Assembly (NCBI GenBank): GCA_001897515.1
Contig: MKTA01000032.1
Location: 62,001 to 126,000 of the forward strand
DNA length: 64,000 nucleotides
From: Bacteroidetes bacterium 41-46
Lineage (GTDB): Bacteria; Bacteroidota; Bacteroidia; Bacteroidales; UBA932
Direction: 5' to 3'
In this document: positions 2,575 to 27,295 of the stretch, piece by piece
Layout: each line of letters opens with the position of its first letter
Position numbering within the stretch: position 1 is the stretch's first letter
The notes under the pieces: model-generated
What the model saw: the letters and a program-made list of their open reading frames with translations, nothing else
The model's database searches: none
Told to the model about the DNA's origin: nothing
Made by a program: the position numbers and the translations under genes

Positions 2575-3651
2575 CTAAAGAAGTTTTATAAAATCATCAA
2601 AAAGGAATTCTGTATCAGTAGGTCCGCTTGAGGCCTCCGGATGAAACTGGCATGAGAAGAATGGTTTGTATTTATGCTTAATTCCCTCGTTAGTTCCATC
2701 ATTCATATTAACAAAGAGAGGTTCCCAATCCTTTCCCAGCGTTGCGTCATTTACTGCGTAGCCGTGATTCTGAGACGTAATGAAGCATCTGTTGGTCCCG
2801 GCCATTCTTACGGGCTGATTATGGCTTCTGTGGCCATATTTCAATTTGAAAACAGATGCTCCTGCTGCTTTTGAGAGAAGCTGATTTCCCATACATATAC
2901 CAAATATTGGTTTGTCATTATTTAATGCACTTTTTATGTTTTCCACAGCCTCGTCGCAAAAGTTAGGGTCTCCGGGTCCATTTGAGATAAAAAGTCCATC
3001 GTAATCAATTTTGGAGAAGTCATAATTCCATGGGACTCTGATTACTTCAACACCTCTGCTGATAAAGCATCTTATAATGTTATGTTTAACACCACAGTCC
3101 ACCAGCAGAACCCTCTTTTTCCCCTCAGCTGTACCATATCTTAGTACCTCTTTACAGCTGACTATATCCACTTGGTTATATCTGTTCGGATCCTCAATTT
3201 TTTCTAATTTCGCCCCGGAGGGAACGATTTTACCAAGCATGGATCCCTTCTCTCTCAATATTTTGGTGAGTTCCCTTGTATCAACACCAAAAATTCCGGG
3301 CACTTTGCTCTCCTTAAGCCATTCATCAAGGCTTTTTGAGGCATTCCAGTGGCTGTAATTAAATGAATAATCAGAAATAATCAATCCTCTGACATGAATT
3401 TTTTCTGACTCATAAAATGATGAAAGACTATTTGTTACAGAATCTGCAGGCACTCCGTAATTCCCAACCAGGGGGAAGGTTACACAGAGTATCTGACCAG
3501 AATAGGAGGGGTCTGTGAGACTCTCCGGATAACCCACCATAGCAGTAGAAAAAACGACCTCACCATCAATGGCTTGGTCGTTTCCAAATGAGTAACCGGA
3601 AAACTCTGTTCCATCCTCAAGAACGAGTGTTGCGGGTTTGTATTTGTGCAT
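2575..3651 (-). CDS. carA: Carbamoyl-phosphate synthase small subunit (glutaminase)
   Basis: 358 aa; [65 protein letters not shown]. Confidence 0.95.
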
Positions 3652-3685
3652 CTCTTTTTCTAAAAAATCTTTTAATAAATTCCTG

Positions 3686-3693
3686 CAAAGTTA
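3686..3693 (-). promoter_or_regulatory. Putative Bacteroidota -7 element (TAACTTTG) upstream of carA
   Basis: Matches TAnnTTTG on the minus strand, 35 nt upstream of the carA start. Confidence 0.45.
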
Positions 3694-3724
3694 TGTATTA
3701 ATATTCAAAAAATACCATATACAA

Positions 3725-5332
3725 TTACATTGCTCTGGCAAAAACAGACCACAACTGAGCTTTAAGATCTTTCCAGCGTTGCATCGTTGAAAGTGCATAA
3801 TCGTGAGTACGCCTGGTTAGAAGCTGTTTTGCCTCATCACTCTTTCCTGCCTTAATTAACTCAGTGGCCTCAAATTCGTCAGATGGGGCGGTCCTGAACA
3901 TATCATCTTCAAATCTTGCAATTTCCGGCTCAAGAATCCCCCTTGTTTTATCCCAGTTGATTGTAGCGATTCTGTTAGTCTCCCTGTAAGCCCATATCGC
4001 AGCATCTTCACGGTATCTGTGCTGACCGCAAACATAAAATGAGCTTGGTAGAGATATTGTACCAGAGTATATTGGAATTCTTGGACTCTGCGCAGGATTG
4101 TCAAAAGAGAAGTATGCAACTCCTCCAACCTCATCCGGCAGCCAATCTCTTAGTTGAATAATATGTGAATAGGAACACTGAATAACAGCAATTCCTCTTA
4201 CTCTTTCCGTAACACCTGGTTTTACAGAGTTCAAAAGAGCTCTCATCTCATTACTCATGAAATTTGATACTGGCTTTATAGTATCTTTGTATTCGTTTCC
4301 TTTTGAATCTCTTCTGGTTATCTCCGCAACTAAATTTTTTGTCTGATCCCACTCTGTCCCCTCATATGTCTCCCTATAGAAAGACATCACATCTCTAACT
4401 GAAATCTTTTTATCAGGTTTTACAGAGAAAGGTAACTCCTCTGCATCATATTTCAAGTTAAGTGATGGCGCTACTGAGTTAAGAACGAAGTACTCTCTTA
4501 TTGAGAATGGCTTTCTTCCGTTATTGATTTTCCAAAATTTAAACTCCTCTTTTCCATCCCATAAGCCCAGCTTTTTACATCTCTCTTTAATATCATTGCT
4601 ATACATGAAAAAATCCGGGTCATTAAAGTTTACATTGGATATTCTGGGAATATTTGCAGATATACCTACGTGGTCATCCGGAATTCTTTGAGCAACCCAT
4701 ATGGCAGATGGCTTGCCGGGACCTGATCCGAATATCTCCAGTTGCCACACCTCTTTTTTATCTGCTATAGTAAGGCACTCTCCAGAATCTCCGTAACCGT
4801 ATGTTTCAGCAAGTTTGCCAATTAGCTTAATTGCATCTCTGGCTGTGCTACATCTTTGTAATGCAATTCTCTGCAACTCCTCAATCAAAAAAAGCCCACT
4901 TTTGTTTACCAAAAGATCCCTCCCGGTAATTGTGGTCTCTCCCATAGCAAGTTGCTTCTCGTTCATGCAGGGGTAAGCAGTATTAAGGTAGGCATAGGTC
5001 TCCTCAACAGCCGGTATCCGACCCTTCTCAACTACATTTCTTGTATCCCAAGGCTCTTCGTTATGGAGGACTCCCCAAAAAACAGGCTCACTCTCTCCCG
5101 GTTTAAATTTTTTCCTGGCAGTCATCTCCACCCAGGTACGGTAGTTGGAGTCACAAGTATGAGCAGTCATTACAGAGCCGTCTGTGCTTGCCTTTTTTCC
5201 TACCATTATGGAGGTGCAACTCTCAGAAAAATTTTCATCATCAGGATCAACCGGGATCCATTGAGTCTGTGCAGATGAGACTAACGTAAAAAATAGCCCC
5301 AGCAACAAAAGGGAAATTCTCTTCATATTCAT
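3725..5332 (-). CDS. C69-family dipeptidase (PepD-like), secreted
   Basis: 535 aa; signal peptide MNMKRISLLLLGLFFTLVSSAQ; CTSIMVGKKASTDGSVMTAHTCDSNYRTW typical of peptidase family C69/U34. Confidence 0.85.
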   Translation of the reverse strand: MNMKRISLLLLGLFFTLVSSAQTQWIPVDPDDENFSESCTSIMVGKKASTDGSVMTAHTCDSNYRTWVEMTARKKFKPGESEPVFWGVLHNEEPWDTRNVVEKGRIPAVEETYAYLNTAYPCMNEKQLAMGETTITGRDLLVNKSGLFLIEELQRIALQRCSTARDAIKLIGKLAETYGYGDSGECLTIADKKEVWQLEIFGSGPGKPSAIWVAQRIPDDHVGISANIPRISNVNFNDPDFFMYSNDIKERCKKLGLWDGKEEFKFWKINNGRKPFSIREYFVLNSVAPSLNLKYDAEELPFSVKPDKKISVRDVMSFYRETYEGTEWDQTKNLVAEITRRDSKGNEYKDTIKPVSNFMSNEMRALLNSVKPGVTERVRGIAVIQCSYSHIIQLRDWLPDEVGGVAYFSFDNPAQSPRIPIYSGTISLPSSFYVCGQHRYREDAAIWAYRETNRIATINWDKTRGILEPEIARFEDDMFRTAPSDEFEATELIKAGKSDEAKQLLTRRTHDYALSTMQRWKDLKAQLWSVFARAM

Positions 5333-5358
5333 AGTTCTGGTGTTAATTGTTGTATATG

Positions 5359-5366
5359 CAAAAATA
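5359..5366 (-). promoter_or_regulatory. Putative -7 element (TATTTTTG) for the C69 peptidase gene
   Basis: TAnnTTTG on the minus strand in the divergent intergenic region. Confidence 0.4.
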
Positions 5367-5398
5367 ACATTATCTTTACCAAATCCAACACCATTACT

Positions 5399-6742
5399 AT
5401 GTTTAGATTATTTCTGGCATTCTTAACAGTGCTAATCTCCTTTGTATCTTCTGCAGAGGACAGGCGTGTATTTGTAATACCCGTAAAAGGGGAGATATCA
5501 AAGGCAACTGAGCGTACTCTTAGCAAAGGTCTTAAACAGGCAACAGAGAGGGAGGCTGATTTTGTTATTATACATTTAAACACTTATGGAGGTGCAGTAG
5601 CTTCCGCAGACAGTATGAGGAGTGCTTTGCTTAAATTTGGGAAACCAGTAGCAGCCTTCATTGATAATCAAGCAGTCTCAGCAGGAGCGCTGATTAGCAT
5701 TGCGTGCGACTCTATATATATGACAACCGGTAGCACAATTGGGGCAGCAACTGTTGTAAATCAGTCAGGAGAACCTATGCCGGACAAATACCAATCTTTT
5801 ATGAGGGCGATGATGAGATCTACTGCTCAGGCAAATGGCCGTGATCCATTAATTGCAGAGGCAATGGTTGATCCATCTATAGTTGTTCCCGGAATTGCCG
5901 ACGATAGTCTAAAGGTTCTTAGTTTTACAATGGAGGAGGCCATTGCCAACGGTTATTGTGAAGGGTCAGCTTCAACTATTTACGGGGTTGCAACTATGCT
6001 CGTAAATGGAGAGAATTATACTGTTGAAGAGATGAAGATTTCGTCACTTGACAAGCTGATCTCTTTTCTTCTTTCGCCCATGCTGCAGGGACTTTTACTA
6101 ATGGCAATCATAGGTGGTCTCTATTTTGAACTCCAGAGTCCGGGAATCGGATTTCCTTCTGCAGCAGCCGTAATTGCCGCTCTACTCTATTTTGCCCCTC
6201 TCTACCTTGAGGGACTTGCCGAAAATTGGGAGATAATCCTGTTTATTGTCGGTGTTTTGTTAATCCTTGCAGAGATATTTGTAATACCAGGATTTGGAAT
6301 AGCCGGTATCTCAGGAATATTGGCTACTGTTGTCTCTCTGGTATTTGCAATGATTGACAATAATCTCTTCTATTTTGATGGGAGAGTTGATTTTATCGTG
6401 ATTATTAAACCTTTGTCTATTGTTCTGTTATCTGGATTCTCCTCCCTCGTACTGTCAATTTGGCTCGCTGGAAGATTGTATCCCGGCAAGAGCTTTTCGT
6501 ATCTCTCGCTTAAAACAAGTCTTGAGTCTAATACAGGATTCGTAGGAGTTGAAGACAAACTTCAAACATTAATTGGTAAGAGGGCAATAGCGACAAGCAG
6601 CCTGAGGCCATCCGGAAAAGTTGAAATAGATGGGAGATGGTATGAAGCTACTCTTGAATATGGAATGGCAGATAAAGGTGATGAATTAGTTGTTACTAAA
6701 GCCGAGGGCGGAAGAGTTTATTGCGAACGTCTTCCTCAATGA
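5399..6742 (+). CDS. NfeD-family membrane-bound serine protease (ClpP-like domain + TM + NfeD OB domain)
   Basis: 447 aa; VIIHLNTYGGAVASADSMRSALLKFGKPVAAFIDNQAVSAGALISIACDSIYM; C-terminal LIGKRAIATSSLRPSGKVEIDGRWYEA. Confidence 0.9.
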   Translation: MFRLFLAFLTVLISFVSSAEDRRVFVIPVKGEISKATERTLSKGLKQATEREADFVIIHLNTYGGAVASADSMRSALLKFGKPVAAFIDNQAVSAGALISIACDSIYMTTGSTIGAATVVNQSGEPMPDKYQSFMRAMMRSTAQANGRDPLIAEAMVDPSIVVPGIADDSLKVLSFTMEEAIANGYCEGSASTIYGVATMLVNGENYTVEEMKISSLDKLISFLLSPMLQGLLLMAIIGGLYFELQSPGIGFPSAAAVIAALLYFAPLYLEGLAENWEIILFIVGVLLILAEIFVIPGFGIAGISGILATVVSLVFAMIDNNLFYFDGRVDFIVIIKPLSIVLLSGFSSLVLSIWLAGRLYPGKSFSYLSLKTSLESNTGFVGVEDKLQTLIGKRAIATSSLRPSGKVEIDGRWYEATLEYGMADKGDELVVTKAEGGRVYCERLPQ

Positions 6743-8030
6743 GTTCAAGTAGCTTGTCAATAGCCTCATTTTCAGGAACTGCTCTGTAAACAGCAGTTTT
6801 TCCTCTGTAAATACTAACTCGGTTTTTACCTTCACCGACATAGCCATAGTCTGCGTCAGCCATTTCGCCGGGTCCGTTAACGACGCAACCCATTACAGCA
6901 ATGTTGTACCCCTTGAGATGAGCTGTCCTTCTTTTAACCTCCTCAAAAACCGGCTCAAGATTGAAAAGAGTTCTTCCGCAACCGGGACATGCGATATACT
7001 CCGGTTTAGAAAAGACTCTTCTGCTTGCCTGAAGCAGATCATCCCTGAATACAGAGACCTTTTCCACATCGGCAGGAGCTCCATTTATTGAGACTTCAAA
7101 TATTACATCGTCAATAATTTTGTCAAGCAGCAGAGGACCAAGATCACAACTCGCTTTAAGAATAAAATTATCCCAGCAATCTTCGTTGTAGGATGCCTTT
7201 ATTACTCTATCTCTTTGTTCTCCAGTATTTGATCTCTTCTCTTTAAGATAATTGGCAATAAACCTGGCTACCGGGATCTCATTTTCAGGATCCTCTGTAA
7301 GAGAAACTCTCAGAGTGTCTCCAATGCCTTGACTAAGCAGTGCTGCAAGGCCAACGGATGATTTAACGCGTCCGGACTGTCCGTTCCCAGCCTCAGTTAC
7401 CCCTAGATGAAGAGGATAAAATATACCTCTTTGCTTAAATTCATTATAAAGTAATCTGTACGCCTCAGTCATTACCAAAGTATTGCTGGCCTTAAGTGAG
7501 ATGACTATTTGGTCAAAATCAAACTCCTCAGCCATTTTAATCCACTCTAAAGCAGATTGCATCATACCCACAGGGGAGTCTCCGTACTTGTCTATTATTC
7601 TCTCTCCTAAAGATCCGTGGTTTACTCCTATTCTCAAAGCAACGCCTCTTCTTTTACATACCGTAATTAATTCATGGAATTTTATTCTTGCCGTTTCAAA
7701 GTCCCTGGCAAAATTTCCAGGGTTTATCCTGACCTTATCAACAACTTCTGCTGCAGCAATAGCCACATCAGCTGTAAAATGGACATCTGCTGAGAGTGGG
7801 GTAGTAATTCCATTATCCATAAGACGCCTTTTAATCACTCTCAGTGCCTCTACCTCTTTCATTCCTTGCGAGGTTAGTCTAATTAGCTGTGCACCAGCTT
7901 TTGACAGACGAAGACATTGATTGTAAGAAGAGTCAATATCCTGGGTTGAAGTATTGCACATTGTCTGTACAACAATTGGTGAAGCTCCTCCAATATGAAG
8001 ATCTCCTATTTTAACAACTATATGTCTCAT
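6696..8030 (-). CDS. ispG: 4-hydroxy-3-methylbut-2-en-1-yl diphosphate synthase (IspG/GcpE), intermediate length
   Basis: 444 aa; GGASPIVVQTMCNTSTQD, LRIGVNHGSL, LHLGVTEAGNG, IGDTLRVSLTEDPE, IACPGCGRTLFNLE, VMGCVVNGPGE. Confidence 0.95.
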   Translation of the reverse strand: MRHIVVKIGDLHIGGASPIVVQTMCNTSTQDIDSSYNQCLRLSKAGAQLIRLTSQGMKEVEALRVIKRRLMDNGITTPLSADVHFTADVAIAAAEVVDKVRINPGNFARDFETARIKFHELITVCKRRGVALRIGVNHGSLGERIIDKYGDSPVGMMQSALEWIKMAEEFDFDQIVISLKASNTLVMTEAYRLLYNEFKQRGIFYPLHLGVTEAGNGQSGRVKSSVGLAALLSQGIGDTLRVSLTEDPENEIPVARFIANYLKEKRSNTGEQRDRVIKASYNEDCWDNFILKASCDLGPLLLDKIIDDVIFEVSINGAPADVEKVSVFRDDLLQASRRVFSKPEYIACPGCGRTLFNLEPVFEEVKRRTAHLKGYNIAVMGCVVNGPGEMADADYGYVGEGKNRVSIYRGKTAVYRAVPENEAIDKLLELIEEDVRNKLFRPRL

Positions 8031-8656
8031 TTTGATTTGATATGAAAGAAGAGCGAAGCACTTAATATCAAGTGATTTGGATAAGAGTATTGTGGTCTTG
8101 TAACTCCGCCTTTTCTTGGATCATTCAGATAAGTTAAAGAATAATTGTAATTTGCCTCCAGATGTAGCTCAAAAGGTTTTAATACAAATGCAAGGCCTCC
8201 CCCTCCGATTATTCCGAATTCAAGCCTGTTGTCTCCATCTTCATATGGCAGGCAATTTGGCTCTATTCGTTTGCCTCTGTATCCTCCATATGCTCCAAGA
8301 TTCAGAAGTAGTCTCATTTTCCAAAAATCAATGTGGAATTGAGATACCAGAGGAACTCTATACATTTGAGAGACCAGCCTCTCGCCACCCACTTCGTAGC
8401 CGGTCTCCATCAGAGACAAACCTGTCTGAAGTCCAAAATAGGGTGAGGAGCCCCAGATATCATGATAGTAGGTATATAGCAGAGAGAAATTTTTAAAAGT
8501 CTTTACAGATCTGTGTTCAAGTGGAGGATCAAAATAGACCCCTGAAATGTTATAACCGTAACTTACCCCTGCCATGTGTAATTTATTCTGGGCCTGAATC
8601 TCTCCAGATAATACCAGAGAAAATATTGTTATAACTGATATTATTACTTTTTTCAT
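8027..8656 (-). CDS. Small outer-membrane beta-barrel protein (porin family)
   Basis: 209 aa; signal peptide; alternating amphipathic beta strands; overlaps ispG start by 4 nt. Confidence 0.6.
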   Translation of the reverse strand: MKKVIISVITIFSLVLSGEIQAQNKLHMAGVSYGYNISGVYFDPPLEHRSVKTFKNFSLLYTYYHDIWGSSPYFGLQTGLSLMETGYEVGGERLVSQMYRVPLVSQFHIDFWKMRLLLNLGAYGGYRGKRIEPNCLPYEDGDNRLEFGIIGGGGLAFVLKPFELHLEANYNYSLTYLNDPRKGGVTRPQYSYPNHLILSASLFFHIKSK

Positions 8657-10467
8657 CTGAAAATTTCTTTTAGATCAATACCCTGAGACAACTCCATACC
8701 CTCTTTAAGATCAAAGATCTCAGTGCCGGAAGGAAGTTTGTATAGCCTAACCATCTCAGGTTGTCGTCTCTCTTTCAGTAGCCCTGAATCAAGGATTCCG
8801 TTTCCATTTGTGTCTTTGAATACCCTTATAGAGTATTTCCCGGGTTCAAGGTATGGAAAATCAAGGATTGCGTCAGATGTTATTCTGTATGATCTGAATA
8901 CCTTATCACGAGCCTGATTAATTAGTTCAACCACATAGGAACCACCATCAGATCCCTTAATTTCAAGATCTATTCTCCCAAGTTTATCGCTTTTTGGAAG
9001 CATAATCTTAATTGCTGTTGAATCATTGTAATTGCCTGAGATATCGGTAAAAGCTCTGCTATCAACAGATAAGATGTAGTCATAACCCTGCTGTAGTCTG
9101 TTTTCAGGCAATACAGTATATCGTCTCAACTCCAGAGTATCAGCCTTTAGTTTAAACTTTTCAGAAGCCTCTTGTCCTTTTGGAGTAAGCGAAATGAGTT
9201 TTATGCTGTCAATTAATATTGACTCAATGGGTGCCGGAAATTCAAGTTTGAAACCCTCTTTTTCAACTAAGGCCGGATTGGCGTCAAGTTTTATCTCTAA
9301 AATATTTGGTCTGCTATCTTTTTTACGCTCTTTTTCACGTTGCTCTTGTTGCCTTGATTTTCTTGGGATCAGAAACCTGAAATTTTCTCTTGTCATTACA
9401 AGATTTTCCAAAGAATCTGTTTTAAGATACTTAATTGAAAAATTTAATGTATCCGGAACTCTTTTAGTGTCTCCCTTAATCCAAATGGTAAGACTATCTC
9501 TTGTGATATTGAATTTCTTGATAATCTGATTAGAGTCTATCTCATTAAAACCTAAAGAATCAATTACAGCATTGTGGGCATTAAATTTTATGTAACACTC
9601 TCTTTCTGACAGTCTTTCATACTCTTTGACAAATTGTCTTGAAGCCTCTTCTCTAAATAGATAGAGTCTGAAATCGCTCTTTCTGGCAAGAGATGCAGTT
9701 GTATCTTTTGGATCTACATAAGCAAGTTCCGCCATCCCTCTCTTCATTATCTTAGAGGGTGTAAACAGAGTGTCTAAAAATGCGAGTTTTTCATTTTCTG
9801 GATTATAAATATTATTTCCGTTTTCATCTGAAAAGGCTATGACTCTATATGGCACAGGTTTTAAATTTGTAATAACAAAATGGCCCCATTTATCACTTTT
9901 AGAAATTGCTGATGGCAATTGGTTATAAAGGGAAGAGTCAGAATGATTTTCGTAAAAGGCAAGAGTTATACCAGGAAGGGGTAGCAGAGTGGCCGCATCA
10001 ACAATATCTGCTGTAGAGATTAATGAATCAATACTATCTCCGGTTGAGAATACATATCTGTACGGATAGAATGCATTACCTTCGTTATTGTCAACAATTG
10101 AATTATTAAAAGAGACAGAGTATGTTGTATTGTGATTGAGAGAGTCTCTGAATTGGACAATCACGCTCTTTCCACGAACCTTTGCTTCAACTCTTCTTGC
10201 CTGAGGAGGAGATACAACAATATTTTTTTCAGCCTCTTTCAAGACTATAAATTCGTTGAATTTCAACTCAATTTTCTCTCCCTTTAATGGAAAGAAGACC
10301 CTGTTTGAATCAGGGGTGACTTTGACCAGAACAGGTGCCAGAGTATCTTTCACACCACCGGAGGGTGGTGCAGTTGTATTTGCACAGGATTGAAACAGAT
10401 TAATTAAACCAATGGAAATTAAAATGATAATTAAAGTATATGTTTGTCTAAATTGGTTCATAAGCAT
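8653..10467 (-). CDS. Ig-like (SbsA-type) domain lipoprotein, conserved Bacteroidota family
   Basis: 604 aa; lipobox NLFQSC; SGGVKDTLAPVLVKVTPDSNRVFFPLKGEKIELKFNEFIVL. Confidence 0.7.
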   Translation of the reverse strand: MLMNQFRQTYTLIIILISIGLINLFQSCANTTAPPSGGVKDTLAPVLVKVTPDSNRVFFPLKGEKIELKFNEFIVLKEAEKNIVVSPPQARRVEAKVRGKSVIVQFRDSLNHNTTYSVSFNNSIVDNNEGNAFYPYRYVFSTGDSIDSLISTADIVDAATLLPLPGITLAFYENHSDSSLYNQLPSAISKSDKWGHFVITNLKPVPYRVIAFSDENGNNIYNPENEKLAFLDTLFTPSKIMKRGMAELAYVDPKDTTASLARKSDFRLYLFREEASRQFVKEYERLSERECYIKFNAHNAVIDSLGFNEIDSNQIIKKFNITRDSLTIWIKGDTKRVPDTLNFSIKYLKTDSLENLVMTRENFRFLIPRKSRQQEQREKERKKDSRPNILEIKLDANPALVEKEGFKLEFPAPIESILIDSIKLISLTPKGQEASEKFKLKADTLELRRYTVLPENRLQQGYDYILSVDSRAFTDISGNYNDSTAIKIMLPKSDKLGRIDLEIKGSDGGSYVVELINQARDKVFRSYRITSDAILDFPYLEPGKYSIRVFKDTNGNGILDSGLLKERRQPEMVRLYKLPSGTEIFDLKEGMELSQGIDLKEIFR

Positions 10468-10470
10468 CAG

Positions 10471-12768
10471 TTACTGATTATCCTTAATTTCTGTGCGGGC
10501 AACACTCATAACACCTTTAACTGAAGACATTTGCTTCATAAGTTTTTCAAGATCTTCAACACTGTGTACATAAAGATCAATATATCCCTCAAATATTCCA
10601 TCATGGGTCTCTATGAATATTTTTCTGATATTGACACTAAGAACTAATGTAATATATTGTGTAAGTTCATTAACTATCCCAAGTCTGTCAATACCTCTCA
10701 TATTTATTCTTGCAAGAAAAGAGAGGACTGTGTGCTTACTCCATTTAGCCTTTACAATTCTTTCTCCATCCCTTGAAGCCATGTGTATGGCTTCAGGACA
10801 GCTGTTTTTGTGAACTATTACAACGTCGTTATCATCAATAAACCCAATAACTTTATCACCGGGGATAGGCCGGCAACATACAGCTACCTGATATGACAGG
10901 GTCTTCTCCACTGGGTTTTCCTTTAGCAGAAAATCCTTTTTAATATCTATTTTTGAAGCTCTTTTCTCTTCCTGTACTTTCTGTATTTCAACAGGGTCAT
11001 CAGAAAGCTCCTCCTCGCCCTGCCAATCCCATTTACCCTCGGAGTCTCCTCCTGTAATTTTTGAAAACTGAAGACTCCAATATCTGACAAATTTACTTGT
11101 TGTGTTCTTTTTTAATACTTTTGATAAGTCTGCCAGATCTATAAGGTTGGCTCCAATTTTACTAAAAAGTTCCTCTCTGTTGTTGAGCTTGTAATTTTCT
11201 GAGAGTTTCCTGTAAACTCTGGACATTGGTCTTATACCCATTGACTTAAGTCTTTCATCTAAAATCTCTTGACCCCTCTTCTGAGAGTCTTTAATTTCTG
11301 ACTTAAGCGCATCAAGAATGAAGCTTTTTGCCTTTGGGGTTTTAATAAATTCCAGCCAATCTCTTTGTGGTCTCTGGGACTCAGCTGTAATTATCTCTAT
11401 CTGATCCCCGTTCCTCAGTTCATATGTAAGCGGAACCAGTTTAAAGTTTGCCTTTGCAGCGATAGCTTTATTTCCAACCTCAGTATGGATTGCGTAGGCG
11501 AAATCTAAAGCTGTCGCACCTTTTGGCAGAGATCTTGACTCACCTTTTGGCGTAAAAACATAGATTTCAGAGGAGAGTAGCCCGGTATGGAACTTATCAA
11601 GAAATTCAAGGGCATTAACATCGGGATTTTCTAATACCTCTCTTACCATATTAAGCCATTTGTCCATCTCTCCCTCTGAGGGAGAGCTTCCTTTGTAGCT
11701 CCAGTGAGCAGCTACACCTCTCTCAGCCAGATCATCCATTCTGGAGGTCCTGATCTGAATCTCTACCCAGTTGCCTTGAGGGGCCATTACTGTACAATGG
11801 AGAGCCTCATATCCATTAATCTTAGGAGTGCTGACCCAGTCTCTGATTCTATCTGTTTTTGAGAGGTATAGCTCAGTTATTAGTGAATAGATGTGCCAAC
11901 ATTGAATTCTCTCAGGTTGGTCGGGCTTTGCGTCAAAAATAATTCTGACGGCATAAAGGTCATAAATCTGTTCAAACGGAATAGACTTCGCATTCATCTT
12001 TCTCCAGATGGAGTAGGGGCTTTTGGTTCTTTTTGAAACAGTGAACTTGTAACCGGCTTTATTTAAACTTTCGGATATAGGTTCCATAAAACTGTCCATA
12101 GCACAGCCTCTCTCAGCAACCGTTTGTGAAATTTTTGCCTGTATGCTCTCGTACTCTGCAGGCAGAGTATGCATTAGCCATATATTCTCCAACTCAGATT
12201 TAATGCTGTACAGACCAAGACGATGAGCAAGAGGTATAAAAATATACATCGTCTCACTGAGAATTTTGGACTGCTTATGCTCAGGCATAAACTCAATAGT
12301 CCTCATATTATGTAGTCTGTCAGCGAGTTTTATCAGAATAACCCTGACATCATCATTTAGAGTCAGCAGAATACGTTTAAAGTTCTCTGCCTGACTACTT
12401 GTGCCACTATCAAAAGCACTTTTAATTTTTGTTAATCCATCAACCAGAGATGCGATTTTAGCACCAAAAAGTCTCTCAATATCATCTGTATTGTATTCTG
12501 TATCCTCAACTACATCATGCAGAAGGGCAGCCACAATAGATTTGTATCCCAGACCAATCTCTTTTACCACTATCTTGGATACAGCAATGGGATGAAGGAT
12601 ATATGGCTCTCCGGAGCGTCTTCTTACTCCATTATGTGCAGCCTTTGCAAACTCAAAGGCTTTGAGAACAATCTCAAATTCAGCTTGATTAGCACACCTT
12701 TTTAAGCTTGCTAGCTTTAATTCCTCAAATTCGCTCTCAATAAGCTCGTTATCCTTATCGGTAAACAT
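10471..12768 (-). CDS. rsh: RelA/SpoT bifunctional (p)ppGpp synthetase/hydrolase
   Basis: 765 aa; HD domain AALLHDVVEDT; synthetase DLYAVRIIF; TGS IYVFTPKGESRSLPKGATALDFAYAIH; C-terminal ACT. Confidence 0.95.
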   Translation of the reverse strand: MFTDKDNELIESEFEELKLASLKRCANQAEFEIVLKAFEFAKAAHNGVRRRSGEPYILHPIAVSKIVVKEIGLGYKSIVAALLHDVVEDTEYNTDDIERLFGAKIASLVDGLTKIKSAFDSGTSSQAENFKRILLTLNDDVRVILIKLADRLHNMRTIEFMPEHKQSKILSETMYIFIPLAHRLGLYSIKSELENIWLMHTLPAEYESIQAKISQTVAERGCAMDSFMEPISESLNKAGYKFTVSKRTKSPYSIWRKMNAKSIPFEQIYDLYAVRIIFDAKPDQPERIQCWHIYSLITELYLSKTDRIRDWVSTPKINGYEALHCTVMAPQGNWVEIQIRTSRMDDLAERGVAAHWSYKGSSPSEGEMDKWLNMVREVLENPDVNALEFLDKFHTGLLSSEIYVFTPKGESRSLPKGATALDFAYAIHTEVGNKAIAAKANFKLVPLTYELRNGDQIEIITAESQRPQRDWLEFIKTPKAKSFILDALKSEIKDSQKRGQEILDERLKSMGIRPMSRVYRKLSENYKLNNREELFSKIGANLIDLADLSKVLKKNTTSKFVRYWSLQFSKITGGDSEGKWDWQGEEELSDDPVEIQKVQEEKRASKIDIKKDFLLKENPVEKTLSYQVAVCCRPIPGDKVIGFIDDNDVVIVHKNSCPEAIHMASRDGERIVKAKWSKHTVLSFLARINMRGIDRLGIVNELTQYITLVLSVNIRKIFIETHDGIFEGYIDLYVHSVEDLEKLMKQMSSVKGVMSVARTEIKDNQ

Positions 12769-12775
12769 ATTTTTA

Positions 12776-14194
12776 TTAATAAAGTAAGTCTCTTTTACCG
12801 TTTTTAATCAGTGAAAGTTTAGATGCAACATCCTCTCTTTTTTTCTCATCCTTTATATATGAAAGTTCTCTTTCAATAAGTTCATAGCCTGCTTTTTTAG
12901 TCTCAGCAGATGAGTAATCCTCCAAATACTCAGCCAGAGTGAGCATTGCATTTGGGGTACAAAATCTTCCAATAAAACCAGGTATGGCATACTCCATAAA
13001 ATGTTCGCCTGTTCTTCCTACTCTGTAGCAAGATGTACAAAAACTAGGTATAAATCCTTTTGTGAGCAGCCATTCTATTACTTGATCAAGCTCCCTTCTG
13101 TCACCTACTTCAAATTGTTCTCTGTCAAGCTCCTGATTTTTTCCTCTCTCCTCTTGATAACCCCCAATTTCCAGTCTGGTTCCGGCATCTATCTGTGATA
13201 CTCCAAATTCAATAACCGCATCCCTAACCTCTGCACTCTCTCTTGCCGTCATTATGAGGCCTGTGTAAGGCACAGCAAGACGCAATATTGCAACAAGTTG
13301 CTTAAACTGATCATCGGTAACCTGATAAGGGAGGTGCAGGTCAAGTCCGTAAGCAGGTTTAACACGAGGAAAGCTTATTGTATGGGGACCCACTCCATAT
13401 CTGTCTTGTAAATGGTGAGAGTGTTCAACCAGTCCCAGTACCTCAAATCTCCAGTCATATAATCCAAAAAGAGCTCCGATTCCAACATCATCATGCCCCC
13501 CTTCAAACGCCCTGTCCATTGCATTCAACCTCCACATATAGTCGCTTTTGACTCCGGGTGCAGGGTGAAATTTTTTATATGTCTCTTTATGGTAAGTCTC
13601 CTGAAATACCTGGAATGTCCCTATGCCGGCCTCCTTAACCGTCCTGAAGCCCTCAATTGTCATAGGAGCTGCATTTATGTTCACCCGTCTTATCTCGCCA
13701 TTACCAACCTTCACGTTGTAGCATGTCTTTACAGTTTGTGCTATATATTCAGGTGTGTACTTTGGATGTTCGCCATATACAAGAATTAATCTTTTGTGTC
13801 CCTCTTTCTCAAGCTGGGCAACCTCAGCAACTAACTCCTGGTCTGTAAGAGTCCTTCTGACTGCTCTTGAAAGAGAACTTCTGAATCCACAATACTGGCA
13901 GTTATTTATGCAATAATTACCAATGTAAAGCGGTGCAAATAGTACAATTCTGTTTCCATAAATTGATTTTTTCAGATCTCTTGCAGTCTGATAAAGTTCC
14001 TCTAGCATTTCAGGAGACTTTATTGCCAAAAGCTCTGCTGTCTCTTCAACACTCAGAGCCTGTTTAGATCTGCTTTTCTGAAATATATCGCGAATCTTTA
14101 CCGGATTCTCTTTTGTGTTATTTATAAGATTGTGCAGTTTTTCATCATTAATGAAATCAACAGCATCCTTTGTAAGTTCAAGGTTCATTTTCAT
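12776..14194 (-). CDS. hydG: [FeFe]-hydrogenase maturation radical SAM tyrosine lyase HydG
   Basis: 472 aa; radical-SAM CINNCQYC; C-terminal CTSC-X22-C auxiliary cluster motif that distinguishes HydG from ThiH. Confidence 0.93.
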   Translation of the reverse strand: MKMNLELTKDAVDFINDEKLHNLINNTKENPVKIRDIFQKSRSKQALSVEETAELLAIKSPEMLEELYQTARDLKKSIYGNRIVLFAPLYIGNYCINNCQYCGFRSSLSRAVRRTLTDQELVAEVAQLEKEGHKRLILVYGEHPKYTPEYIAQTVKTCYNVKVGNGEIRRVNINAAPMTIEGFRTVKEAGIGTFQVFQETYHKETYKKFHPAPGVKSDYMWRLNAMDRAFEGGHDDVGIGALFGLYDWRFEVLGLVEHSHHLQDRYGVGPHTISFPRVKPAYGLDLHLPYQVTDDQFKQLVAILRLAVPYTGLIMTARESAEVRDAVIEFGVSQIDAGTRLEIGGYQEERGKNQELDREQFEVGDRRELDQVIEWLLTKGFIPSFCTSCYRVGRTGEHFMEYAIPGFIGRFCTPNAMLTLAEYLEDYSSAETKKAGYELIERELSYIKDEKKREDVASKLSLIKNGKRDLLY

Positions 14195-23901: not shown

Positions 23902-23932
23902 TTTGATTAGAATTAAAAAAATATTACATTTG
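23902..23932 (+). promoter_or_regulatory. Putative Bacteroidota promoter: TTTG (23902-23905), 19-bp spacer, TACATTTG (23925-23932)
   Basis: Fits TTTG-N19..21-TAnnTTTG; sits directly upstream of the 23.9-27.3 kb cassette. Confidence 0.6.
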
Positions 23933-23937
23933 CAATA

Positions 23938-25170
23938 GTGAACATGAATCACCTAAACTTAATGGAATCAAAGCTTTCCGGTGTTAAACAATTATGCAGG
24001 GTTTTTACCCTTGCCTTTGTTCTATTGCAAATCAGCCTGTTTGCAACAGCACAAAGCAAGATTGAGAATGCTTTAAATAATGCCGGATTTGAAAATGTGA
24101 GGCATATATCCAAACCAGGAAAAGAGATACTCTTTTTGGAAAATAAATCATATTCAAACCAACAGAGAGCAGTAGAGGCGGCAAGGGAGGAGGTTTCACT
24201 ATTGAAAAACGAATTTTTAACAGATAATGTTGAAATAGTATTAATGGATGAAAAGATCCCTCTTCTTAGGACTTACGCATCATTGAAGAGTCCTGATGAG
24301 ACAATTTGGAAATCTGATTTCATGCTGGAGGAGGCAATGGGTGAGATTCGTTCTTATGATGGGACAAAATTTGAATACGAATCAGCCGGTAAGCTGGACT
24401 TGAAACTTTATCCTACATTCAGATTTAAAAATTCCAGGCTTGATGTAATGTATCTTTTGCAATTCAATATAAACCCCACACTTGAAGTATCATTGTGGAG
24501 AGGTGCAAAGGCTACAGCACAGATAATTTTCCCGGTTGTTAATGATTACTCTGTTGAAGAGGGAAAGATACGTCCGGGATTTCTTACCATTTCGCAGCAG
24601 TTTCGTCTGCCTTACAACATATACTCCATGGTAACATTGGGTAATTTCAATATGTTCAGAGCAGGAGCTGATTTAAAATTATATAAGTCTATTGGCAAGC
24701 GTTTGGGTGTGTTCGGACAGGTTAGTTATACTGCGTACTCTGTTCCAATGTTTGATGACTGGCTCTACTCCGGATTCAATACACTAACCTGGAAACTTGG
24801 TGCAAATTATGTATATAAGCCTCTTAAAATGATATTTAGTGCATCCGTAGGAAAATATCTGGGAAATGATATTTCAGTACGTGGAGAGGTGACAAGATAT
24901 TTCAAAAACTCTGCAGTTGGATTTTATGTCCAGACTATGGATATTCCCGACTATCCTATAAACGGGGGATTCTTTTTTGCAATTTCCCTTCCGCCCTATA
25001 AACATAACAGGAACAAATTTGTTAGAGTTTCTGCAGGTGACTATTTCCCCCTTGAGTATATTGCCAGACCATATACTTATCACGGAAGATATTTCACAAC
25101 CTCTCCCGACGAAAATTCGTCGTACAACTTTTTTAACAGAATACATTTAAGTCAACTATTTGAAAATTAA
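23938..25170 (+). CDS. YjbH/GfcD-like outer-membrane protein, resembles the C-terminal half (start may be ATG at 23944 or 23962)
   Basis: 410 aa; signal peptide LAFVLLQISLFATAQ; linker-type region ENKSYSNQQRAVEAAREEV; beta-barrel strands ending NGGFFFAISLPPYKHNRNKFVRV. Confidence 0.65.
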   Translation: MNMNHLNLMESKLSGVKQLCRVFTLAFVLLQISLFATAQSKIENALNNAGFENVRHISKPGKEILFLENKSYSNQQRAVEAAREEVSLLKNEFLTDNVEIVLMDEKIPLLRTYASLKSPDETIWKSDFMLEEAMGEIRSYDGTKFEYESAGKLDLKLYPTFRFKNSRLDVMYLLQFNINPTLEVSLWRGAKATAQIIFPVVNDYSVEEGKIRPGFLTISQQFRLPYNIYSMVTLGNFNMFRAGADLKLYKSIGKRLGVFGQVSYTAYSVPMFDDWLYSGFNTLTWKLGANYVYKPLKMIFSASVGKYLGNDISVRGEVTRYFKNSAVGFYVQTMDIPDYPINGGFFFAISLPPYKHNRNKFVRVSAGDYFPLEYIARPYTYHGRYFTTSPDENSSYNFFNRIHLSQLFEN

Positions 25171-25193
25171 CCAATAATTAACCAACAAGATTT

Positions 25194-26513
25194 ATGAAAG
25201 CAAGAAAATTCTTTACAAAACTGATGGGAGTAGCATCTGCTTCACTCCTGTTCGCGCTTTTTACAAGTGCTTGCACAAAGGTAGATGAGCCTACACCTCT
25301 TCCTCAGCCTCAGCCTGCCACCTACTCAATTAAAGGAGAGGTTTATAACAACTCTACTAATGCAGCTCTGGCAGGTGTTACTGTTCAAATGGGAACACTG
25401 ACTACCACAACTGATAATGCAGGTAAATTCCAATTTCTTAACCTTACATCAGCAGGCAAGTATATTATCAATCTTTCAAAAGCCGGATTTCTTTCAACTG
25501 CTATAACGCTGGAATTCCAGCCTGCAGCTCCTAATCATGCCATGATTTATACTGTATCTGCTAAGATGGTTCCATATGTTCCAGGAGGAACTTATATTGA
25601 GCCATCAGTTGGAGGAACTCTGTTTATTGATGGTGGTGCTCAGGATGCTACATTGACAGTTGCTGCCAATACAGTAGTTAAAGATGCAAACGGAGCAACA
25701 ATAACAACTCCTTATCAGATTTTGGCTGTTCAAGCTAACGACCAGGTTGCCGGCACTACACTTAATGCGCCTCTGAAGGTATTTAGCTTCGCTCCAACAG
25801 GATACACATTTACTCCTGCTCTTGCATTGAAAGTTGACAACCCTCTTACAAACTACAGGTACTCAAATCTTATCCTTCAGTACTTCACAAATAACGCTTG
25901 GGTTACTCAGACTACTCCTGTAACATTTGATGCTACTGCTAATGATTATGTAACATCAATCAGCCACTTCTCAATGTACAAACTTGCATTTGATGTTCCT
26001 ATCGCTGCAGGTGCTTCTTCTGAACAGCCTATTACAGTTATTGATAGCCTTAAGATTAATAGAGGCCTTACAGGTGTTTCATGGAGCAACTGGAAGCATA
26101 TTAAGAAGAGTGGTTATGTATTCTCACAGCCTCTTGATGCAACTCTTAACGCCGCCGGTATAACTGGTGCTGACCAAGAGCAACTGATTAACTCTATCAA
26201 GAATATTGTAAAATACCACAATGGAGGAATTGAAGCTCAAAATGCTTTCACATCTGGTGAAGATGCATTTGTTTCTGAAAAACAAATCCCAAGTCTTACT
26301 TACATGATTGTAACAGGTAAACAAACATTTAACACTAAGACTTATACTCTTAAAGTAAAGACACTTGATGGGTTAACAGAGAAAACAATTGTCGTTACAA
26401 CTATTCACGCTGGTGCAGTTGAGCTATTCTTTGAACATCTGATTTATGATGAGCACGCTCACGGACACTACCACGGTCACGATCACGGTCTTGGTGGAGG
26501 CGGTACAGTATAA
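25194..26513 (+). CDS. Lipoprotein with CarboxypepD_reg-like N-domain, ZU5-like region and histidine-rich C-terminus
   Basis: 439 aa; signal peptide ending FTSAC; GEVYNNSTNAALAGVTVQMGTLTTTTDNAGKFQFLNL; GGTLFIDGGAQDATLTVAANTVV...SHFSMYKL; tail HAHGHYHGHDHG. Confidence 0.7.
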   Translation: MKARKFFTKLMGVASASLLFALFTSACTKVDEPTPLPQPQPATYSIKGEVYNNSTNAALAGVTVQMGTLTTTTDNAGKFQFLNLTSAGKYIINLSKAGFLSTAITLEFQPAAPNHAMIYTVSAKMVPYVPGGTYIEPSVGGTLFIDGGAQDATLTVAANTVVKDANGATITTPYQILAVQANDQVAGTTLNAPLKVFSFAPTGYTFTPALALKVDNPLTNYRYSNLILQYFTNNAWVTQTTPVTFDATANDYVTSISHFSMYKLAFDVPIAAGASSEQPITVIDSLKINRGLTGVSWSNWKHIKKSGYVFSQPLDATLNAAGITGADQEQLINSIKNIVKYHNGGIEAQNAFTSGEDAFVSEKQIPSLTYMIVTGKQTFNTKTYTLKVKTLDGLTEKTIVVTTIHAGAVELFFEHLIYDEHAHGHYHGHDHGLGGGGTV

Positions 26514-26533
26514 CTTTTGAACCAAGTCTCTGA

Positions 26534-27262
26534 ATGAGATTAAAGATCCAAATTACAAAGATGATGTTGGGAGCAGCTATTCTGCTCCTGACATCTTCTT
26601 TTTTAAACGCACAGACAACTCTTGGCGTAACCGGGCTTCTTAATAGCCCTACGGCAGAGATGTCTCCGGACAGGACTGTTAAAATTGGTGGAAACTTCCT
26701 CCCAAAGCAGTTTACAACTGATACTTGGGATTATCATACATTTAACTTCTTTATAAACATAACCTTCCTCTCATTTGTAGAGGTCTCAATGAATAATACT
26801 GCATTTGATTTATGGGATGCAGGATATTTCAGTAATGTTGACAGGTCAATATCTGTTCGACTTAGACCGGTTAAGGAAGGAAAATACTGGCCGGCTGTTG
26901 TTATTGGTTCCAATGATGTGATCTCTACAACTAGTCTTGTCGGCTATGCTCAGGGTAATAAATTTTTCGGCACACATTATATTGCGCTGACAAAACACTT
27001 TGACATTGGAGCAAACAGACTAGGTTTGCATGCTGCTTATAATATACCGGTAAGTGTACACGTAAAACAGGAGTTTCCTGTTTCTGGAGGTATCTCTTTC
27101 TCTCCTGCCTTCTATAAAAATTTGAACATAATTGCAGAATACGACTCAAGAGATTTCAATCTTGGAGCTAATGTACTTCTGTTCAAACATCTCTATTTTC
27201 AATTTTTCATGAACGAGCTAAAATATCCGGTCGTCGGATTTCACGTACAGTTCACAATCTAA
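26534..27262 (+). CDS. YjbH/GfcD-like outer-membrane protein, resembles the N-terminal half
   Basis: 242 aa; signal peptide then GVTGLLNSPTAEMSPDRTVKIGGNF, which matches the GxTGLxNxPTA N-terminal YjbH motif. Confidence 0.65.
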   Translation: MRLKIQITKMMLGAAILLLTSSFLNAQTTLGVTGLLNSPTAEMSPDRTVKIGGNFLPKQFTTDTWDYHTFNFFINITFLSFVEVSMNNTAFDLWDAGYFSNVDRSISVRLRPVKEGKYWPAVVIGSNDVISTTSLVGYAQGNKFFGTHYIALTKHFDIGANRLGLHAAYNIPVSVHVKQEFPVSGGISFSPAFYKNLNIIAEYDSRDFNLGANVLLFKHLYFQFFMNELKYPVVGFHVQFTI

Positions 27263-27268
27263 AATGCT

Positions 27269-27295
27269 GCTTGTAGAGATACAGGCTTTTTTTTT
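27269..27295 (+). terminator. Rho-independent terminator GCTTGTA-GAGA-TACAGGC-T9
   Basis: 7-bp stem with one G-U pair, tetraloop, and nine T residues ending exactly at the next ATG. Confidence 0.75.

Follow-up and report, generated by a model that had tools for sequence, protein, structure and literature searches.

The window analysed here is a stretch of 64,000 nucleotides of contig MKTA01000032.1 of Bacteroidetes bacterium 41-46, in which positions are counted from the first letter. Three closely spaced genes lie there between a promoter and a terminator. The first and third encode two parts of a YjbH/GfcD-type outer-membrane protein, referred to below as the C-half and the N-half, and the second encodes a lipoprotein. 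The features are as follows:

23902–23932, + strand: promoter of the Bacteroidota type, TTTG-N19-TACATTTG, the sole exact match in the 64 kb window.
23962–25170, + strand: YjbH/GfcD C-half, secreted, with a GfcD-M-like periplasmic domain and the C-terminal barrel (assigned by Pfam and profile-profile alignment).
25194–26513, + strand: lipoprotein with the lipobox TSAC, a transthyretin/CarboxypepD_reg-like domain, a ZU5-like sandwich and a C-terminal alpha/beta domain.
26448–26513, + strand: His/Gly C-terminal tail of the lipoprotein, predicted to be disordered, ending in DEHAHGHYHGHDHGLGGGGTV and containing the H..GG motif.
26534–27262, + strand: YjbH/GfcD N-half, secreted, 242 aa, N-terminal barrel only (assigned by PF06082 and profile-profile alignment).
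26559–26599, + strand: RNA hairpin with a T-run, resembling a terminator or attenuator and located within the codons for the N-half signal peptide.
27269–27295, + strand: intrinsic terminator of the operon (7-bp stem, GAGA loop, T9).

The three plus-strand open reading frames and the intergenic gaps of 23 and 20 nt given in the earlier note were confirmed, as were GVTGLLNSPTAEMSPDRT at the start of the third protein, the ENKSYSNQQRAVEAAREEV linker in the first, and the terminator, whose hairpin (27269–27286) is followed by T9. The trio of secreted proteins is present as described, with the correction that, of the three, the middle one alone is a lipoprotein. The promoter was also found at its proposed place; it is suggestive only, since 0.49 exact matches are expected by chance in 64 kb. 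Its distance to the first gene is 12 nt for the ATG at 23944 and 30 nt for the ATG at 23962. On the basis of this spacing, the ATG at 23962 was preferred over those at 23938 and 23944, and it is the likely start of the C-half (402 aa; the ATG at 23944 would give 408 aa). Those neighbours of the trio that were examined were ordinary genes, for example those for DNA ligase, RelA/SpoT and ValS.

A comparison with the Pfam family PF06082 (658 positions, cut-off 24 bits) placed the N-half at positions 2–194 with 48.6 bits and the C-half at positions 479–599 with 23.1 bits, just below the cut-off. Family alignments of the Bacteroidota homologues of each half were then used as hhalign queries against E. 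coli YjbH; the N-half aligned to residues 32–277 (E = 1.5e-15) and the C-half to residues 310–684 (E = 1.6e-13). The GfcD protein is divided into the domains GfcD-N (19–278), GfcD-M (279–423) and GfcD-C (424–698) (PMC11494523). The two alignments meet at a border of these domains; therefore, the gene border lies between the N-terminal barrel and the middle domain. The invariant residues of the N-half (G31, G34, P39, A41, E83, D103, E115, P120, K154, G186, E202 and N209) are kept in the E. coli and Paraburkholderia proteins. Fewer residues are held in common by the C-half, including G227, G235, G297, L300, F314, G320 and G336 (numbered from the ATG at 23962). An AlphaFold model of the C-half, for which only five sequences were supplied (the window and loci L026–L029), reached a pLDDT of 44.7 overall; within it, an alpha-beta-beta repeat was predicted for the middle domain with a pLDDT of about 70–86. 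A sequence search of the PDB with each half gave no match.

The profile alignments thus show that the N-half corresponds to the N-terminal barrel of GfcD and the C-half to its middle domain and C-terminal barrel, in agreement with the earlier proposal that the halves are separate proteins. A reading of proteins 1 and 3 as tandem paralogues, or as barrels that resemble YjbH without being related to it, is very improbable: the C-half of the window alone stays just under the Pfam cut-off, but a congeneric C-half (genome G004) clears it with 27.3 bits, the signature residues are common to E. coli YjbH/GfcD, and their alignments cover separate, complementary regions of YjbH/GfcD with E-values of about 1e-13 to 1e-15, which rules this reading out. 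A single polypeptide carrying both barrels was found neither in the window nor in any Bacteroidota genome with hits. N-half barrels were also observed inside longer ORFs of 487–534 aa (L205 at 3684–5147 and 11608–13212; L211 at 1194–2711); the end of one or more of these ORFs resembles an OmpA-type domain.

The conservation of the trio in related genomes was checked as well. The order C-half, lipoprotein, N-half was present in 17 congeners, and the trio was also found in further genera and in different classes (L114, L116, L206, L217 and L121, the last in high-GC DNA). The C-half was detected in 20 of 395 genomes of the phylum and in 20 of 393 genomes of the order. An N-half was found in 25 of the 27 genomes carrying a C-half, with none detected in G118 and G644; N-half matches occurred in 14/15 C-positive versus 15/281 C-negative genomes (Fisher 3e-15). 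These searches show that the genes for the two halves co-occur across Bacteroidota.

The arrangement of the genes differed between loci. The order C-half, lipoprotein, N-half occurs in the genus of the window and in L114, L116, L121 and L206; N-half, C-half, lipoprotein in L204 and L210; and lipoprotein, C-half, N-half in L207. In L110, L119, L123 and L213, the lipoprotein gene is located upstream of an N-C pair. The halves are far apart in G287, G134 and G337, and they are frequently unlinked, on different contigs. Consequently, the reversed order described earlier holds for the window genus and some others as a local trait and is not general, as N-C also occurs. The suggestion that the split is particular to the lineage of the window was not borne out: all the Bacteroidota genomes sampled show it, and the way in which BT0292/BT0293 of Bacteroides thetaiotaomicron are annotated already implies it (PMC10434189).

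Several variations in the surroundings were recorded. In L087 (G011, 5041–8639), there are two copies of the tailed lipoprotein and a C-half fragment close by, which is a trace of local cassette duplication. In L198 (G583), a gene for 123 aa (3430–3801) is inserted between the C-half and the tailed lipoprotein. A secreted protein of about 215–250 aa is often located 3' of the tailed lipoprotein (L198 at 1259–2011, L199 at 4022–4729, L201 at 9006–9755, L204 at 467–1192, L212 at 4237–4914 and L217 at 1360–2010), that of L199 matching OMP_b-brl. An OmpA-family protein follows the tailed lipoprotein in L112, with look-alikes in L115, L214, L215 and L216.

The lipoprotein of the window matched PF13620 (CarboxypepD_reg) with 35.3 bits; no match to PF12985 (DUF3869) and no sequence match in the PDB were found for it. 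Its AlphaFold model had a pLDDT of 77.5, with the tail residues 420–439 below 50 and disordered. Foldseek searches with this model retrieved transthyretin-like folds and the ZU5 domain of ankyrin (E = 4.8e-4), with the structures 3g3l and 3kog at ranks 2–3. The lipoprotein beside the C-half of G337, from the same order, matched 3g3l with an E-value of 4.5e-28, including the tail HDSHDSHDSHG..NAGGG, which places it by sequence with the DUF3869 lipoproteins. The bodies of 30 tailed lipoproteins fell into seven groups without similarity at E 1e-3; a distant kinship of some of them is possible, and several have transthyretin-like first domains. Around residue 258, the ZU5-like domain of the window lipoprotein contains SISHFSMYK, which is reminiscent of the HFS motif at which ZU5-UPA proteins cleave themselves. 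Akin HFS/HFT sites are present in many of the tailed lipoproteins.

All 30 lipoproteins linked to a C-half or an N-C pair, from 26 genera, carried a C-terminal tail that follows the pattern (C)H[DNQE]xGG, for example CHEGGGGE, CHNQGNGG, CHDQGSGGTGG, PHDQGGIFFGPY, CHQGCNL and CHDQGGGK. Their genes directly adjoin the C-half in 25 of the 30 cases; the other five are separated from it by one small gene or lie immediately upstream of an N-C pair, and two of these five (L119 and L213) were chosen with the tail in view. The tail was found in all 18 loci obtained after the pattern had been proposed. One C-half locus, L208 (G687), had no lipoprotein adjacent. As a control, 153 other ORFs passing the lipobox test, a simple pattern, yielded 19 matches; removal of 17 congener copies of the same gene left 2 loose matches among 136 (Fisher about 5e-28 by genus). 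Within the scanned 66% of the complete G011 chromosome, only 2 of 98 lipobox ORFs truly ended in an H..GG tail, and both belong to the trio locus. These two comparisons ruled out chance low complexity as an explanation of the tail. Tails of the form CHxxG were also sought in 296 genomes with a broad DNA pattern, which was too loose and gave no more hits than a reversed control. When the 30 lipoproteins were aligned, only the column of the tail His was fully invariant. The earlier note had noticed the His-rich tail and missed that no other feature of the lipoprotein is as conserved. As far as sequence can tell, the linked lipoprotein always ends in (C)H[DNQE]xGG, whatever its body. In Proteobacteria, small secreted proteins with Gly/Ser/Thr-rich ends, such as SGGGNGTSSTGTTG, were observed beside fused yjbH/gfcD genes (L174 at 4188–4439, L177 at 8857–9060, yjbE in L084 and gfcA in L085). 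The Gly-rich ends of these YjbE/GfcA-like proteins are possibly a loose parallel to the His-Gly tail, with a superficial likeness only.

The hairpin near the 5' end of the N-half gene has 17 pairs followed by a T-rich sequence and a folding energy of -24.6 kcal/mol in the window. Hairpins of -18 to -28 kcal/mol were found in 16 congeners, and 15 congener loci (L086–L103) have the hairpin at the same place; it was the strongest local structure of the N-half gene in all 10 congeners examined for this. Ten of the 17 pairs have changed on both sides with pairing kept; none of 500 shuffles reached the observed covariation score, and every slid register scored far lower. The hairpin was not evident in most distant lineages, with moderate ones in g144 and g67. 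It is possibly an attenuator, a processing signal or a 3'-end stabiliser of the message for the C-half and the lipoprotein. The split of the gene, together with this hairpin, would allow the C-half and the lipoprotein to be made in excess over the N-half, and differing doses of the two halves would be a reason for keeping them as separate genes.

Taken as a whole, the operon may encode a two-piece outer-membrane device of the YjbH/GfcD type with a dedicated lipoprotein, combining paired barrels, a role in polysaccharide handling, docking through the tail and a dosage hairpin; we give this reading a probability of about 50%. The two barrels would lie next to each other in the outer membrane and take over the function of GfcD/YjbH, in which a surface polysaccharide is let through or anchored, and the lipoprotein would replace the missing YjbF/GfcB, its tail docking on or in the C-half as LptE plugs LptD. 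GfcB, GfcC and GfcD interact (PMC8592465), and GfcD has a two-barrel layout with a lateral gate predicted in GfcD-C for lipid-bearing cargo (PMC11494523). The YjbF/GfcB family (PF11102) was absent from 14 of 14 genomes, with E. coli as the positive control; hence, the lipoprotein is not a YjbF/GfcB homologue, and the tailed protein may fill the YjbF slot. Polysaccharide as the cargo is inferred by analogy with the E. coli gfc/yjb work and from the neighbours of other N-half genes or N-C pairs, which include OPX and Wzc genes (L122 and L123), sugar transferases (L111 and L117), Polysacc_synt_2 (L204) and MBOAT (L105). No polysaccharide genes were found around the window trio. OPX genes are present in the genome of the trio; they do not discriminate, because they also occur in congeners without it.

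The sharing of the His-Gly tail suggests a docking or sorting tag that has gone unrecognised. A bolder version, advanced tentatively and with distinctly less confidence than the reading of the operon, is that the tail belongs to a class of C-terminal address tags not described before in Bacteroidota; as a short peptide, it would be transferable, read by the C-half of the split YjbH, and used to dock or export any lipoprotein that carries it. If this is true, YjbH/GfcD-type double barrels handle proteins as well as polysaccharides.

Two other readings of the tailed lipoprotein were considered. In the first, which we regard as rather unlikely, the split YjbH is a machine for exporting and displaying the lipoprotein: the tail acts as an export signal and leads the way into the C-half barrel, the lateral gate proposed for GfcD-C frees the lipid anchor into the outer leaflet, and the transthyretin-like, ZU5-like and coiled bodies are displayed surface adhesins or enzymes. 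A sorting signal would be expected to stay constant while the bodies change, as the tail does; in most loci, the lipoprotein gene is next to that of the C-half and not to that of the N-half, the gate predicted in GfcD-C for lipid-bearing cargo (PMC11494523) fits, and the only two tailed lipoproteins in the scanned part of the G011 chromosome belong to the trio locus. However, usually one tailed protein per genome was seen, which would make an exporter with a single cargo, and fused E. coli YjbH/GfcD is tied to polysaccharide and not to lipoprotein export. In the second and still less probable reading, the lipoprotein is a surface adhesin or carbohydrate binder that is merely co-transcribed with the barrels, and its His tail binds metal or cell-wall groups. 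This was proposed by Natarajan et al. (2015; PMC4387736), and it agrees with the several His residues in the window tail and with the HDSHDSHDSHG tail of 3g3l. Many tails, however, contain one His plus Gly residues (CHNQG, CHEGGGGE and HNQGGS), too few ligands to form a metal site on their own, and the fixed part is H-x-x-G rather than a run of His.

Homologues of GfcD are described as the largest group of multi-barrel outer-membrane proteins, with an open function (PMC11494523). In a naturally divided double barrel, each barrel can be deleted, expressed and solved singly, and the invariant tail names a few specific residues for mutation. The His-tailed Bacteroidota lipoproteins 3g3l and 3kog, of known structure and unknown function, gain a candidate partner and a likely operon.

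A comparison with E. coli GfcD/YjbH (PF06082, formerly DUF940) demonstrated that the N-terminal barrel, the periplasmic middle domain and the C-terminal barrel are recognisable in order and length, although one gene there corresponds to two here, and YjbF/GfcB is replaced in the neighbourhood by another lipoprotein with an H..GG tail. The 12-strand N-terminal barrel region of GfcD (19–278) is matched by the N-half sequence. Its C-terminal barrel, for which 13 strands and a lateral gate are proposed, is matched by the C-half sequence, whose model had a pLDDT of 44.7. The LptD-LptE pair also joins a barrel with a (proposed) lateral gate to a lipoprotein partner, as an analogy only and with no sequence relation.

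Closer precedents exist within Bacteroidota. According to Natarajan et al. (2015; PMC4387736), the structures of BF1687 from B. fragilis (3g3l) and of BVU_4064 (3kog) represent proteins with a His-rich C-terminus, and the genes of Bacteroides His-tailed lipoproteins often neighbour those of DUF940 (YjbH) and OmpA-like proteins. These DUF3869 lipoproteins resemble that of the window in the lipobox, the transthyretin-like first domain, the His-rich C-terminal tail and a neighbourhood with DUF940 and OmpA-like barrels. In contrast, the available portion of the main text of that paper contains neither complementary DUF940 halves nor a link to GfcD, and neither the H..GG core nor its occurrence on unlike bodies and in further classes. 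The adjacent genes BT0292 and BT0293 of B. thetaiotaomicron, each listed in a table as "YjbH domain-containing protein" (PMC10434189), resemble the present pair as two neighbouring YjbH-domain genes, known from annotation and not analysed there as halves. Given this annotation, the view that separate YjbH halves had never been recorded was dropped; together with the work of Natarajan et al., it also means that the association of a lipoprotein with YjbH is not new as such. As far as the literature searched shows, the complementary split, the phylum-wide tail with its motif core, the hairpin and the proposed mechanism are new.
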